DNA of 25,157 bases from a virus, in IMG/VR virus record IMGVR_UViG_3300021961_000585, positions 1-25,157 of that record; one strand, 5' to 3'. Positions 343 through 4,720 of the stretch are shown here, in pieces. The position numbers and the translations under genes were made by a program. Each line of letters begins with the position of its first letter. The first letter of the stretch is position 1. The notes below the pieces were generated by a model. It had not been told where the DNA came from. It searched no databases and saw only the letters and a list, made by a program, of their open reading frames with translations.

Positions 343-1121
343 AACATTTAGTTATACCAGATTGCCAGGTTAAGCCCGGCATTTCTGTTAAGTACTTAGA
401 GAATATAGGTAAGTACATAGTAGAAAAACTACCAGATGTTATTGTCTGTATAGGTGACTTTGCTGATATGCCTAGCTTATCAAGCTATGATGTAGGTAAA
501 AAATCTTTTGAAGGACGTACATACAAAGCTGATATTAAAGCTGTACATAAAGGTATGGAAGCTTTACTAACACCTCTATGGAAGTTTCAAGAGAAACAAC
601 GTAAGCTTAAAAAGAAAGTATATAGTCCTCGTATGATACTTACATTAGGTAATCATGAAGACAGGATAGATAGAGCAGTAGAGAATGATCGTAAACTAGA
701 AGAACTAATTAGTATAAAGGATTTAAATTATGAACAATACGGCTGGGAAGTACATGATTTTCTTGACGTGGTTGTGGTCAATGGCATTGCTTACTCACAT
801 TACTTTGCAAGTGGTGTCATGGGAAGACCAGTCACATCAGCACAAGCTCTCATTACAAAGAAACACATGTCATGCTTCGCAGGGCATCAGCAAGGTAGAC
901 AGATTGCCTATGCTAGAAAAGCAGATGGCTCTGAAATCACTTGTATTATAGCAGGTAGTTGCTATGAACATGATGAATCTTATTTAAGTAGTCAATCTAA
1001 TAACCATTGGAGAGGCTTCTATGTACTTCATGAAGTAAACAATGGTAGCTTTGATGAGATGGCAGTGTCATTAAATTATGTAAATTCTAAATATGGGGTT
1101 GACAAACGTGCGAAAAGATGA
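339..1121 (+). CDS. Calcineurin-like metallophosphatase/phosphoesterase
   Basis: A 260-aa protein with the metallophosphoesterase signature in order: D8-C-Q10 near the N-terminus (many family members have D-x-H), G39-D40, G104-N105-H106-E-D, a histidine at about 154 and GHQQ with H183. These residues hold two divalent metals that hydrolyse phosphomonoesters or phosphodiesters. The substrate (nucleotide, protein or nucleic acid) cannot be read from sequence. ATG 339 overlaps the preceding stop. The 3' end contains a consensus promoter, and its TGA (1119-1121) forms part of the extended -10 element. The position among endonuclease, DUF3310 and reductase genes favours nucleic-acid or nucleotide metabolism. 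The fold is secure, the function is not. Confidence 0.85.
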   Translation: MKHLVIPDCQVKPGISVKYLENIGKYIVEKLPDVIVCIGDFADMPSLSSYDVGKKSFEGRTYKADIKAVHKGMEALLTPLWKFQEKQRKLKKKVYSPRMILTLGNHEDRIDRAVENDRKLEELISIKDLNYEQYGWEVHDFLDVVVVNGIAYSHYFASGVMGRPVTSAQALITKKHMSCFAGHQQGRQIAYARKADGSEITCIIAGSCYEHDESYLSSQSNNHWRGFYVLHEVNNGSFDEMAVSLNYVNSKYGVDKRAKR

Positions 1122-1127
1122 TATAAT
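1099..1127 (+). promoter_or_regulatory. Consensus sigma70 promoter with extended -10, driving the nrdJ/adenosyltransferase operon
   Basis: The -35 TTGACA (1099-1104) and -10 TATAAT (1122-1127) are both perfect consensus, 17 bases apart, with TG one base before the -10 (1119-1120). It lies inside the end of the metallophosphatase gene. The predicted +1 is base 1134, one base before ATG 1135 of the DUF3310 gene, so the transcript would be almost leaderless. All genes from 1135 to 4720 follow with overlapping or abutting ends, so this is the likely promoter for the whole set, read by host RNA polymerase. Confidence 0.8.
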
Positions 1128-1134
1128 AAAAGCA

Positions 1135-1338
1135 ATGGATAAACAAATAGGTGGTAACCATTACTCTAAATTTGTAATACAACCTACTGAGTTTATTTAT
1201 AAAAACAATATACCTTTTATAGAAGGGTGTGCAATTAAATATCTTTGTCGATGGAAAGATAAAGGTGGAGTACAGGACCTAGATAAAGCTATACACTTTA
1301 TTGAAATGCTAAAGGAGTTACACAATGACACAGTTTGA
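1135..1338 (+). CDS. DUF3310 family protein
   Basis: A 67-aa protein carrying the DUF3310 pattern: GGNHY at the N-terminus, QPTEFIYKNN, a central EGCAIKYLCRWKDKGG motif and a DLDKAIHFIEML helix. The domain is common in tailed phages and is also found in T7 gp1.7, a nucleotide kinase-type protein, so a link to nucleotide metabolism fits the downstream reductase; the exact activity here is unknown. I chose ATG 1135 because conserved sequence begins right after it and the promoter at 1099-1127 puts +1 at 1134. ATG 1093 or GTG 1108 would lengthen it but would lie inside the promoter and metallophosphatase end. No Shine-Dalgarno precedes 1135, consistent with leaderless initiation. The 39-aa gene starts inside its end at 1325. 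Confidence 0.82.
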   Translation: MDKQIGGNHYSKFVIQPTEFIYKNNIPFIEGCAIKYLCRWKDKGGVQDLDKAIHFIEMLKELHNDTV

Positions 1339-1444
1339 AAGCCCTAAGTTTAATTCCAAAGCTAATAATAAAAAGTATGAGGACAACTATGATAGGATCT
1401 TTAAACAAAAAACAAAGGAGACTAAAAAGGTGAAGGAGAAATAA
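1325..1444 (+). CDS. Short hydrophilic phage protein (39 aa)
   Basis: A 39-codon gene starting at ATG 1325 with an AAAGGAG Shine-Dalgarno about 8 bases upstream. It ends at TAA 1442-1444, whose last A is the first base of the next ATG. The protein is very charged: an N-terminal ESPKFNSKANNKKYEDNYD stretch, then IF and a lysine/glutamate-rich tail; no hydrophobic segment. Small proteins with this F-x-SPKFN...Y-x-DNYD-x-IF pattern recur in marine podophages as far as I remember. The exact fit between neighbours and the good ribosome site support it as real. Function unknown; perhaps a small DNA- or protein-binding modulator. Confidence 0.7.
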   Translation: MTQFESPKFNSKANNKKYEDNYDRIFKQKTKETKKVKEK

Positions 1445-1638
1445 TGGCTCTAACGTTTGAAGAAGTATGTGAAAGACTTGCAGACTTAGACGAAGTTACT
1501 TTACTAGAGGTACTAAACATTTCTAGTAAAGAAATAATAGAAAAGTTTCAAGACAAGATAGAAGATAACTTAGAAGATCTAGAAAAAGATCTTGAACTAG
1601 ATAGAGAAGGATACGATTTTTATGGCGACATTACCTAG
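1444..1638 (+). CDS. Acidic helical small protein (64 aa) preceding nrdJ
   Basis: A 64-residue, strongly acidic protein, predicted almost entirely helical (two segments, about 4-34 and 35-53), without cysteine pairs for redox work. ATG 1444 overlaps the preceding TAA and has a GGAG site 6-7 bases upstream. Its end overlaps the nrdJ start by 17 bases and contains the AGAAGGA ribosome site for nrdJ, so translation of the two is probably coupled. An assembly or regulatory partner of the reductase is possible from position alone; I do not recognise the family. Confidence 0.7.
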   Translation: MALTFEEVCERLADLDEVTLLEVLNISSKEIIEKFQDKIEDNLEDLEKDLELDREGYDFYGDIT

Positions 1639-3499
1639 CATTTACCAACAAGTAATACATGCAAGTAGATATGCAAGATACATACCAGAAAAGAATAGAA
1701 GAGAAACATGGGACGAAACGGTTAGTCGATTAACTAACTATCTAGAAACTAAAGCTCCTGATCTTAAGAAAGATATAGCTGAATTAAAAGAATCAATACT
1801 GAATTTAGAAGTAATGCCATCCATGCGTTTAATGATGACAGCTGGAGAGGCATGTGAACGAGACAATATAGCAGCATATAACTGTAGTTATCTAGCTGTT
1901 AATAATAAAAGAGCTTTCTCAGAAGCTTTATATATTCTAATGAATGGTACAGGAGTAGGCTTTTCTTGTGAACGACAAGAGATTAATAGACTACCTGAAG
2001 TACCAGACAAAGTAGAATTATGTGATGATGTTATCGTAGTTGAAGATAGCAAGTTAGGCTGGGCTAAGGCATTTAAGAAACTTATCTCTCACCTTTACGA
2101 AGGTGATATACCTAACTTTGACTTTAGTAAAGTAAGACCTGCTGGTGCTAGACTTAAAACTTTTGGAGGTAGAGCATCAGGACCAGAACCTTTGAAACAA
2201 CTATTTGATTTTGTAATAGATACATTCAAGCAGGCTAGAGGTCGTAAGCTATCCTCAATTGAAGTGCATGACATCATGTGTATGATAGGACAGATCGTTG
2301 TGGTAGGTGGTGTCAGACGATCTGCTCTTATCTCTTTATCTAACTTGACTGATCGCAGAATGCGAGAAGCTAAAATGGGAGCATGGTATAATGACAATCC
2401 GCACAGAGGTCTTGCAAATAACTCCGTTGCCTACACAGAAACACCTGACAGTGAGACTTTCATGGAAGAATGGTTATCTCTGGTCAAGTCTAAATCAGGT
2501 GAGCGAGGAATCTTTAATAGAATTGCTTCACAAAATCAAGCCGCTAAGTGGGGACGAAGAGATCCAGATCTTAGCTACGGAACGAACCCTTGTTCAGAGA
2601 TTATCCTACGTGATAAACAATTCTGTAACCTTACAGAAGTTGTTGTCAGGTCAGGAGATACAGAAGAGTCACTAAAACGTAAGATTAGATTAGCAACATT
2701 GCTTGGTACAATCCAATCTACATTAATAGATTTCCAATTCTTATCATCAGAATGGAAGAAGAACACTGAGGAAGAAAGACTTCTTGGTGTATCGTTAACA
2801 GGTATTATGGATGCTAAAATAACTAGCAACCCTGATCCTAAAATGTTAGAAAGGTTACGAGATTATGCTAGAACAACCAACGAGAAATATGCTAAAGTGC
2901 TTAACATACCTGTTAGTGCTTCTATTACTTGTATCAAACCTAGTGGTACAGTATCTCAACTTGTCGATTCTGCGTCAGGTATACATGCAAGACATAATGA
3001 TTATTACATCAGAACAATTAGAATGGATAAGAAAGATCCCATCTACGAGTTCCTTAAAACGGCAGGGATCAAAGTAGAAGATGAACAGTTTCATCCAGAC
3101 TCTACAGCAGTGTTTAGCTTTCCAATTAAAGCACCTAATGGTGCGTTAACTAGAGATAGTAAGACTGCTTTAGAGCAATTAGATTTATGGTTAACCTATC
3201 AACGTCACTGGTGTGAACATAAACCATCAGTAACTATATCTGTTAAAGATAAAGAATGGGTTGAGGTTGGTGCATGGGTATGGAAATACTTTGATGAGAT
3301 TAGTGGAGTCTCCTTCTTACCACACTCAGATCATACATACCCACAAGCACCTTATCAAGATTGTACTGCAGAAGAATATAAAGCTTTAGATAAACTAACA
3401 CCTAAAGCATTAGACTGGACTACATTTATTGAAGTAGAAGATAACACTAAAGGTTCTCAGGAATTAGCATGTGCTTCTGGATTCTGTGAGGTAATTTAA
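1622..3499 (+). CDS. nrdJ: Adenosylcobalamin-dependent (class II) ribonucleoside-triphosphate reductase
   Basis: A 625-aa monomeric class II reductase, which converts ribonucleotides to deoxyribonucleotides using a thiyl radical made from adenosylcobalamin and needs no oxygen or small subunit. Visible landmarks: C88 (NCSY) and C335 (FCNL) as the reducing pair, N322-P-C324-S-E326 with the thiyl-radical cysteine and general-base glutamate, KPSGTVS at 439-445 in the phosphate-binding loop, and the C-terminal swinging pair C617-ASGF-C622. All key residues are intact. It is shorter than the Lactobacillus leichmannii enzyme (739 aa), which is usual for phage copies. AGAAGGA lies 10 bases before ATG 1622. 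The adenosyltransferase two genes downstream should supply its cofactor. No thioredoxin is visible, so reducing power probably comes from the host. Confidence 0.95.
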   Translation: MATLPSIYQQVIHASRYARYIPEKNRRETWDETVSRLTNYLETKAPDLKKDIAELKESILNLEVMPSMRLMMTAGEACERDNIAAYNCSYLAVNNKRAFSEALYILMNGTGVGFSCERQEINRLPEVPDKVELCDDVIVVEDSKLGWAKAFKKLISHLYEGDIPNFDFSKVRPAGARLKTFGGRASGPEPLKQLFDFVIDTFKQARGRKLSSIEVHDIMCMIGQIVVVGGVRRSALISLSNLTDRRMREAKMGAWYNDNPHRGLANNSVAYTETPDSETFMEEWLSLVKSKSGERGIFNRIASQNQAAKWGRRDPDLSYGTNPCSEIILRDKQFCNLTEVVVRSGDTEESLKRKIRLATLLGTIQSTLIDFQFLSSEWKKNTEEERLLGVSLTGIMDAKITSNPDPKMLERLRDYARTTNEKYAKVLNIPVSASITCIKPSGTVSQLVDSASGIHARHNDYYIRTIRMDKKDPIYEFLKTAGIKVEDEQFHPDSTAVFSFPIKAPNGALTRDSKTALEQLDLWLTYQRHWCEHKPSVTISVKDKEWVEVGAWVWKYFDEISGVSFLPHSDHTYPQAPYQDCTAEEYKALDKLTPKALDWTTFIEVEDNTKGSQELACASGFCEVI

Positions 3500-3636
3500 T
3501 GAATATATCTTTGCATCCAATTTGTGGATTTCATGTAGGGTTTGAGTTAACAGATGGTAGTATAGATGAGGTAGGTATTAGCTATCTTCTGATTGACTTA
3601 GGTATTTTACGAATACAATGTGCTTGGTTTAAATAA
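3499..3636 (+). CDS. Short hypothetical protein (45 aa) between nrdJ and the SLOG gene
   Basis: A 45-codon gene fitting exactly between neighbours: ATG 3499 uses the last A of the nrdJ TAA, and its own TAA (3634-3636) overlaps ATG 3636 of the next gene. The protein begins MNISLHPICGF, has a short acidic middle (DGSIDEVG) and ends in a hydrophobic beta-like segment (YLLIDLGILRIQCAWF). I recall short phage proteins of this HPI-G-F plus IDLGI-RIQ design in marine podophages. The back-to-back stop/start junctions on both sides are the main evidence that it is translated. Function unknown. Confidence 0.62.
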   Translation: MNISLHPICGFHVGFELTDGSIDEVGISYLLIDLGILRIQCAWFK

Positions 3637-4013
3637 TGAAAGTGTGTGTTGTAGGTAGCAGAAGCCTTGATTCTGCAGATAAAGTACTACCTATTATAGA
3701 TAAGTTTATAAAAGATCTTCCTACGTCTTCTATTACTTTCTTAATAGGTAGTGCTAAAGGTGTTGATCCTCTATGTAAACATTATGCTCAATCTCATGGG
3801 CATGATGTTGTAGAGTTCTTACCTTATCATTTATTAGATAGCAGTGTAGAATTTGATAGTAAGTATTTCTTTATACGTACTAAACAAATGATAGACAATG
3901 CAGATAGAGTTCTAGCAATCTGGGATACCAAAAGCAAAGGCACTCACTATGCAATTAAATATACCCAGAAGCTAGAAAAACCAATCATGATTATAAAGGT
4001 ACTTCATGGCTAG
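3636..4013 (+). CDS. SLOG-superfamily (DUF2493/YspA-like) nucleotide-binding protein
   Basis: A 125-aa single-domain Rossmann-like protein. The N-terminal strand ends in VVGSR (residues 5-9), a phosphate-binding loop; then come IGSAKGVDPL (37-46), RTKQMIDNADRVLAIWD (81-97) and KGTHYAIKYTQKLEKPI (101-117), the usual layout of the DprA/YspA-like SLOG group. Proteins of this fold bind nucleotides or nucleotide derivatives, and some cleave N-glycosidic bonds. I see no residue that decides between ligand sensor and enzyme. ATG 3636 abuts the preceding stop, and the gene overlaps the adenosyltransferase by 8 bases. Between a reductase and a cofactor-making enzyme, a role in sensing or processing nucleotides is plausible but inferred. 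Confidence 0.8.
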   Translation: MKVCVVGSRSLDSADKVLPIIDKFIKDLPTSSITFLIGSAKGVDPLCKHYAQSHGHDVVEFLPYHLLDSSVEFDSKYFFIRTKQMIDNADRVLAIWDTKSKGTHYAIKYTQKLEKPIMIIKVLHG

Positions 4014-4533
4014 AATCTATACAAAGTCAGGTGACGATGGATCAACAGGTCTAGTTACTGGAAAACGAGTAAGTAAATCTTCTAACAGAATAGATACCAT
4101 AGGCTCATTAGATGAGCTTAATTCTTTTATAGGATTATCTTTAACAGAAGAAATACCTAAAATAATACGTGATGTATTACATGTAATACAACATAATCTA
4201 TTCGATATAGGTAGCGAAATAGCTACACCTAAAACAATTAGTACAAAAGAATCTCAAGTAATCTATTTAGAAAAAACTATAGATGATTTAACAAGCAGAC
4301 TAGACATACTTCGAGAGTTTATATTGCCTGGAGGCTGCAAAGCAGCAGCTCAAATACATGTAGCTAGAGCTATGTGTCGTAGAGCAGAGCGAAGCTGTCA
4401 TAAATTAACTGATATAAATCCTATTACATTACAATATCTAAATAGACTATCTGATTTACTCTTTACTATTGCTCGTTATCTTAACGCAGCGGCTGGTATA
4501 GACCACGTATACTGGCAAAAAAATGCTAGCTGA
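4006..4533 (+). CDS. ATP:cob(I)alamin adenosyltransferase, PduO type
   Basis: A full-length 175-aa member of the PduO/MMAB family, which transfers the 5'-deoxyadenosyl group of ATP to cob(I)alamin and makes adenosylcobalamin. The N-terminal ATP loop is TKSGDDGSTGL (6-16); next come GSLDELNSFIG (33-43), IQHNLFDIGSEIA (61-73), FILPGG (105-110), the arginine-rich HVARAMCRRAER helix (118-129) and YLNRLSDLLFTIARYLN (144-160). These are the family's most conserved blocks and all are present, so the enzyme is probably active as the usual trimer. It overlaps the SLOG gene by 8 bases and is cotranscribed with nrdJ, whose cofactor is its product. No other B12 gene is visible, so the phage would depend on cobalamin already in the cell. 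Confidence 0.93.
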   Translation: MARIYTKSGDDGSTGLVTGKRVSKSSNRIDTIGSLDELNSFIGLSLTEEIPKIIRDVLHVIQHNLFDIGSEIATPKTISTKESQVIYLEKTIDDLTSRLDILREFILPGGCKAAAQIHVARAMCRRAERSCHKLTDINPITLQYLNRLSDLLFTIARYLNAAAGIDHVYWQKNAS

Positions 4534-4720
4534 GTTTGTATTATTAATTGCTTTAAATGGAAATAAAGAATATGTAGCTAACTTTGTTGACTGTGCTCAT
4601 GCTTTTGAATATGCAAAGGAAAAGTATGTAGAGTATGATCACATGTGTCTACATGAAGATTATGTTTTCTTTCCCACAGAGCAACTAAAGAAATACTACT
4701 ACCCAAAGACCAAAGATTAA
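4523..4720 (+). CDS. Small phage protein (65 aa) with hydrophobic N-terminus
   Basis: A 65-residue protein starting at ATG 4523, overlapping the adenosyltransferase end by 11 bases. A short hydrophobic N-terminus (LAEFVLLIALNG) is followed by a polar body with two cysteines (C24 and C42) and a tyrosine-rich, basic tail. The first segment could be a weak signal or anchor but is short. Similar proteins (hydrophobic start, NGN-x-x-x-V-x-x-F-x-x-C) occur at this place in marine podophages in my memory. It is the last + strand gene; its TAA (4718-4720) overlaps the stop of the opposing - strand gene. Function unknown. Confidence 0.65.
   Translation: MLAEFVLLIALNGNKEYVANFVDCAHAFEYAKEKYVEYDHMCLHEDYVFFPTEQLKKYYYPKTKD

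Follow-up and report, generated by a model that had tools for sequence, protein, structure and literature searches.

A phage operon predicted to pair a class II ribonucleotide reductase with an adenosyltransferase that probably boosts its cofactor supply

Why should a phage that encodes a ribonucleotide reductase (RNR) dependent on adenosylcobalamin (AdoCbl) also encode an ATP:cob(I)alamin adenosyltransferase (ATR), the enzyme that makes this cofactor? The question is raised by a 25,157-base IMG/VR virus record (IMGVR_UViG_3300021961_000585), a partial contig, analysed over its whole length and called the window below, in which the RNR gene nrdJ and a PduO-type ATR gene lie in one run of genes. 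A sequence-only reading of the window proposed that the two form a self-contained module, which would spare the phage from relying on its host to activate cobalamin. We found the biochemical logic of this proposal sound and its claim of host independence overstated. The operon probably joins an AdoCbl-dependent class II RNR to a dedicated booster, which would supply and regenerate the cofactor of the phage reductase.

NrdJ matched phrog_367 (E 1.5e-183) and TIGR02505, the model of AdoCbl-dependent triphosphate reductases (E 1.4e-97; 327.6 bits, slightly below the equivalog cut-off of 340), on which its scores far exceeded those on class I models. The insertion domain PF21995 was found above its cut-off. 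Foldseek placed the ribonucleoside-triphosphate reductase (RTPR) of Lactobacillus leichmannii (1L1L) on top at 3.5e-25, followed by another class II enzyme at 7e-7, a ranking that rests on a poor AlphaFold model (pLDDT 62). By equivalence to the active-site and C-terminal cysteines of RTPR, C324 was assigned as the thiyl residue, C88 and C335 as the redox pair and C617 and C622 as the C-terminal cysteines. All five were invariant in 84 of 84 aligned sequences, which agrees with the earlier description of a class II enzyme with a complete set of catalytic cysteines. The ferritin-like small subunit NrdB (PF00268) was found in none of 14 records, two of which are complete genomes. Since profile, fold and cysteines agree and NrdB was not found, NrdJ is predicted to be a monomeric class II reductase of the AdoCbl type.

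The ATR matched PF01923 (185 bits, cut-off 24) and TIGR00636 (187 bits, cut-off 108) over its full length and had 37 relatives in the PDB, the best of them B. thailandensis 2ZHY. The motifs T-x-x-G-D-x-G-x-T, F-x-x-P-G-G, R-x3-R-R-A-E-R and N-R-L-S-D were all present in the full-length ATRs of its clade (19/19). In the human ATR, R186, R190, E193 and R194 coordinate ATP/AdoCbl (PMC9262797); mapped through the common R-A-x-x-R-R-A-E-R motif, their counterparts in the window were R121, R125, E128 and R129. R126 was replaced by K in some clade members. Pairwise dN/dS (omega) was ∼0.1–0.3 at dS of up to 1.2, and the gene is under purifying selection. Judged by these features the enzyme looks functional, and the intact PduO-type ATR reported beside nrdJ by the sequence-only reading was confirmed. 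The phage ATRs formed a single clade among proteobacterial ATRs (99–100% support). Because this clade was only 45–52% identical to the sampled cellular ATRs and nested within none of the sampled families, the gene was probably captured long ago.

As shown in Table 1, nrdJ and ATR belong to a plus-strand run in the order metallophosphoesterase, DUF3310, orf64, nrdJ, orf45, SLOG, ATR, orf65. Only a 45-aa gene and a SLOG gene separate the two, as the earlier reading had described, and every junction between them overlaps (nrdJ/orf45 1 bp, orf45/SLOG 1 bp, SLOG/ATR 8 bp). All four reading frames were intact. The run proved wider than nrdJ–ATR: orf65 follows ATR (overlap 11 bp), and a pair of small genes precedes nrdJ (orf64/nrdJ overlap 17 bp). 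A TTGACA-17-TATAAT site upstream of the operon was the sole 12/12 promoter match in the window, and the equivalent position scored 11–12/12 in almost all of 36 relatives, the exceptions being L139 (none) and L017 (10/12). Promoter-like sites overall were not enriched over shuffles (17 vs 21); the promoter is credible because of its perfect match and its conservation, not because of general site frequency. The tight overlapping layout and the conserved promoter fit the cotranscription proposed by the earlier reading, and from them we infer a single transcript. The promoter reaches back into the last bases of the phosphoesterase gene; the predicted RNA start falls within 1–2 bases of the ATG at 1135, so that the operon transcript is possibly leaderless. 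Neither a cobalamin riboswitch nor any other convincing Rfam match was found in the window.

Table 1. Coordinates of the early gene run and its promoter-like site in the window.
Feature	Coordinates	Strand	Remarks
Promoter-like site TTGACA-17-TATAAT	1099..1127	+	Upstream of operon; conserved in relatives
DUF3310 protein	1135..1338	+	PF11753; ORF open from 1093, start 1135 fits promoter
orf64, no assigned function	1444..1638	+	Kept at same site in most relatives
nrdJ, predicted monomeric class II (RTPR-type) RNR, 625 aa	1622..3499	+	phrog_367, TIGR02505, 1L1L fold, invariant cysteines
orf45, small protein, no assigned function	3499..3636	+	Conserved in ATR-bearing relatives and MEP401
YspA-type SLOG protein	3636..4013	+	PF10686 (E 1e-7); model pLDDT 93, DprA/TM1055-like fold
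PduO-type ATP:cob(I)alamin adenosyltransferase, 175 aa	4006..4533	+	PF01923, TIGR00636, motifs, omega
orf65, no assigned function	4523..4720	+	Final gene of run, convergent with structural genes; follows ATR in relatives

By its gene content the window is a fragment of a Zobellviridae phage (podovirus-like), nearest to the OM43 phages MEP401 and MEP402. TerL shared 81.6% identity with the protein of Methylophilales phage MEP401 and 56% with its counterpart in Vibrio phage ICP2. The minus strand carried head, portal, tail and endolysin genes (head/tail PHROGs), convergent with the plus-strand early genes, and the gene order (terminase, head and portal genes, convergent layout) was that of MEP401. 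MEP401 has been classified as Zobellviridae, and MEP401 and MEP402 infect an OM43 methylotroph (OP830906, OP830907; PMC10580990).

Relatives of the window were taken from two scans of viral contigs in IMG/VR. The SLOG–ATR order was kept in 20 other contigs, with nrdJ in front wherever the contig reached that far; this conservation together with the low omega of ATR places the arrangement far beyond chance. The presence and absence of ATR on the nrdJ tree were explained by only two changes. A PduO search of annotated phage genomes (INPHARED) listed neither MEP401 nor MEP402. The matches that it gave, in “phage” records of Listeria, Enterococcus, Acinetobacter and Salmonella (OR84xxxx, PQ520108, CAKLQH/CAKLQF), were set aside, as several of these records could be of bacterial origin. 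The record examined, CAKLQH020000002, looks bacterial, with genes for trp, btuB and yvqK on either side of the PduO match.

SLOG stands beside nrdJ in nearly all phages of this Zobellviridae group; in PADLOC it matched PsyrA and ShosA weakly. SLOG identity was 89–99% inside the ATR-bearing clade (plus L051) and ∼54–73% in other Zobellviridae, discordant with nrdJ. In some pairs the silent-site divergence of SLOG and ATR was below that of nrdJ (L006–L007: 0.16 and 0.27 vs 0.71). SLOG–ATR thus seems to move as a cassette through recombination. At L070:5680-7506, nrdJ was only ∼39% identical to that of the window, yet the adjacent SLOG was 69% identical, as if one reductase gene had been exchanged for another at this locus.

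In a wider scan, PduO ATRs were encoded by 406 viral stretches, of which the best 80 were analysed. Among these 80, 11 freshwater loci carried an RTPR in the ATR flank, 26–30% identical to that of the window; habitat was judged by dataset and nearest isolate. The freshwater contigs reached 134 kb and were actinobacteriophage-like, and the order was nearly always RTPR, a ∼150-aa secreted-looking protein, ATR, with the genes further apart in L332. Class II RNR was found in 16/30 freshwater whole records and in 8/9 of those of at least 85 kb. A lake phage, Actinomycetia phage DSL-LC01, in which no ATR was seen, has an RTPR with 77% identity to the freshwater one. The closest PDB entry to the freshwater ATR was 2G2D, the ATR of M. 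tuberculosis (225 bits, vs 131 for the next family member). The secreted-looking protein lies directly upstream of the PduO ATR (L291:5358-8555, L284, L287-L290, L329, L333, L335; L277, L304, L308, L326), is often preceded by a class II RTPR and has invariant cysteines and an MPP...AYW motif. It had no convincing match in Pfam, NCBIfam or PDB searches; it may resemble DUF4430/transcobalamin-like proteins. Tree topology and best PDB relatives suggest that the freshwater and Zobellviridae pairings are likely, though not proven, to be of separate origin; a common origin of the two sets of ATRs was not rejected in the approximately unbiased test (p 0.075). Tentatively, and without our favouring it, dedicated AdoCbl-supply modules around a class II RNR may have been built separately in two or more phage lineages that are not related, the Zobellviridae and the actinobacteriophage-like phages of freshwater, and the freshwater secreted protein could then capture corrinoid.

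The motifs of ATR, the class II character of NrdJ, the conserved operon and promoter and the recurrence of the pairing in freshwater phages with a different intervening gene all argue for a cofactor booster. During infection the phage reductase would increase the demand for AdoCbl. Host enzymes would reduce host-salvaged or spent corrinoid to cob(I)alamin, which the phage ATR would adenosylate to AdoCbl, probably also remaking spent cofactor, and ATR may pass AdoCbl directly to the reductase. Synthesis of deoxynucleoside triphosphates would thereby be kept running, presumably to the benefit of phage fitness. The phage ATR would act on top of the host ATR, not as a substitute for an absent host step. 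The phage does bring its own ATR, as the earlier claim of a self-contained module held; that the module is self-contained is weakly supported, as cob(II)alamin would first need reduction and neither a corrinoid reductase nor an uptake gene was seen among the scanned ORFs of this partial contig.

Because MEP401 and MEP402 infect an OM43 methylotroph, Methylophilaceae would be the likeliest host family. A Methylophilaceae-like family was located through hexulose-phosphate synthase, a marker of the ribulose monophosphate pathway present in 12/399 genomes of the order, a presumptive assignment, and a draw of 150 Methylophilaceae-like genomes was surveyed. A BtuR-type ATR scored above cut-off in 56 of them.

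Several observations weigh against a dedicated booster. The surveyed genomes encoded a PduO ATR in 131/150 cases, many of them only 1.2–1.4 Mb in size, and a class II NrdJ in 140/150. About 50 other contigs of the phage family, and MEP401, have nrdJ, usually with SLOG, without ATR. PF01923 was found in 0/35 whole records of ATR-less relatives (MEP401/402 and 33 environmental records). In L051, which falls within the ATR-bearing clade, SLOG runs straight into orf65 with no ATR remnant. Finally, a group of large low-GC phages (L027-L046, records of up to 160 kb) carried a Bacteroidota-type PduO ATR, and neither an RNR (PF02867, phrog_367) nor a B12-binding domain was found in the records searched. 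Not every phage ATR should therefore be taken for a reductase helper, and the link is not universal. Given that nrdJ occurs without ATR in the cultured relatives and in most of the environmental ones, ATR is an accessory gene of one subclade; the co-occurrence that the earlier reading expected in related phages extended to the 20 contigs with SLOG–ATR and stopped short of MEP401/402 and the environmental records.

An intact ATR within the nrdJ operon could also mean that ATR is weak or absent in the hosts of this phage, which would then supply the activation step itself. Nineteen of the 150 genomes had no PduO match (some of these have BtuR or may be incomplete), and the host assignment of the ATR-bearing subclade is presumptive. 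This explanation is nevertheless unlikely, as a PduO ATR is encoded by most genomes of the likely host family, streamlined ones included, and sister phages get by without an ATR. A host without ATR was accordingly rejected for the Methylophilaceae-like family, and for that family the proposed independence of the phage from host cobalamin activation could not be upheld. By their gene content such hosts would already produce and use AdoCbl. Since they have both ATR and class II NrdJ, the phage ATR would raise or secure the supply and not provide a missing step.

It is quite improbable that ATR chiefly serves AdoCbl enzymes of the host, for example its class II NrdJ, or host corrinoid metabolism, with the place beside nrdJ reflecting operon space at the end of an early transcript. 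The class II NrdJ of the likely host family, the Bacteroidota-type phage ATRs without RNR and the 3′-terminal position of the cassette in the operon, where it is cleanly gained or lost, are compatible with such a service, but ATR always adjoins nrdJ in the ATR-bearing clade and stands beside RTPR again in the freshwater phages. PduO-like folds can bind AdoCbl tightly, and ATR might accordingly be a relic without catalytic activity or a regulator that binds corrinoid; the four intact motifs in every full-length clade member and the low omega make this very improbable. Some phage reductases labelled class II have turned out otherwise (PMC9531940), but an AdoCbl-independent, ferritin-dependent class O-like reductase unrelated to ATR was rejected and carries next to no weight, given that the RTPR profile and fold ranked best and that the 14 records held no NrdB.

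If AdoCbl-supply modules were indeed assembled separately in the two lineages, phage takeover would target AdoCbl supply as a rate-limiting step, and a class II RNR in a phage would be no proof of a B12-producing host. Natural close relatives with and without ATR (L051 and its sisters; MEP401/402 in culture) make AdoCbl limitation of phage DNA synthesis testable.

A literature search, in which subscription journals were little covered, found no paper that couples a phage ATR functionally to a phage class II RNR, and the novelty of the pairing is provisional. The view that such pairings are little described holds with a qualification: viral “cobA” ATRs appear among the auxiliary metabolic genes of a wastewater survey, and the genome of cyanophage P-SS2 (GQ334450) combines, as the window does, an RNR gene annotated as class II with one for an ATP:corrinoid adenosyltransferase. 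Unlike that of the window, the P-SS2 enzyme is of the CobO/BtuR type and lies ∼14 kb from nrd, outside any operon; in the section of the 2009 report consulted, the authors draw no link between RNR and ATR (PMC2784084). MEP401 and MEP402 are closer, with NrdJ 77% and TerL ∼81% identical to the window. MEP401 shares the nrdJ–orf45–SLOG order and the convergent structural operon but has no ATR, and the main text of the MEP401/402 paper mentions neither cobalamin nor adenosyltransferase (PMC10580990).

The cobaviruses are marine podoviruses with a class II nrdJ, and NrdJ of ICBM2 was ∼61% identical to that of the window. Their authors, in a paper in which the term “adenosyl” is absent, concluded that phages with a class II RNR require B12-making hosts (PMC6775973). 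A phage-borne ATR would loosen this rule, in that a host salvaging only non-adenosylated corrinoid could suffice. Among cellular enzymes, B. thailandensis 2ZHY, L. reuteri PduO and human MMAB share family, full length and motifs with the window ATR, and the window-type clade stands apart from these bacterial and human PduO ATRs at the support and identities given above. NrdJ of the window is ∼100 residues shorter than L. leichmannii RTPR (1L1L) and only ∼25% identical to it, and the two have the monomeric class II architecture and the catalytic cysteines in common.

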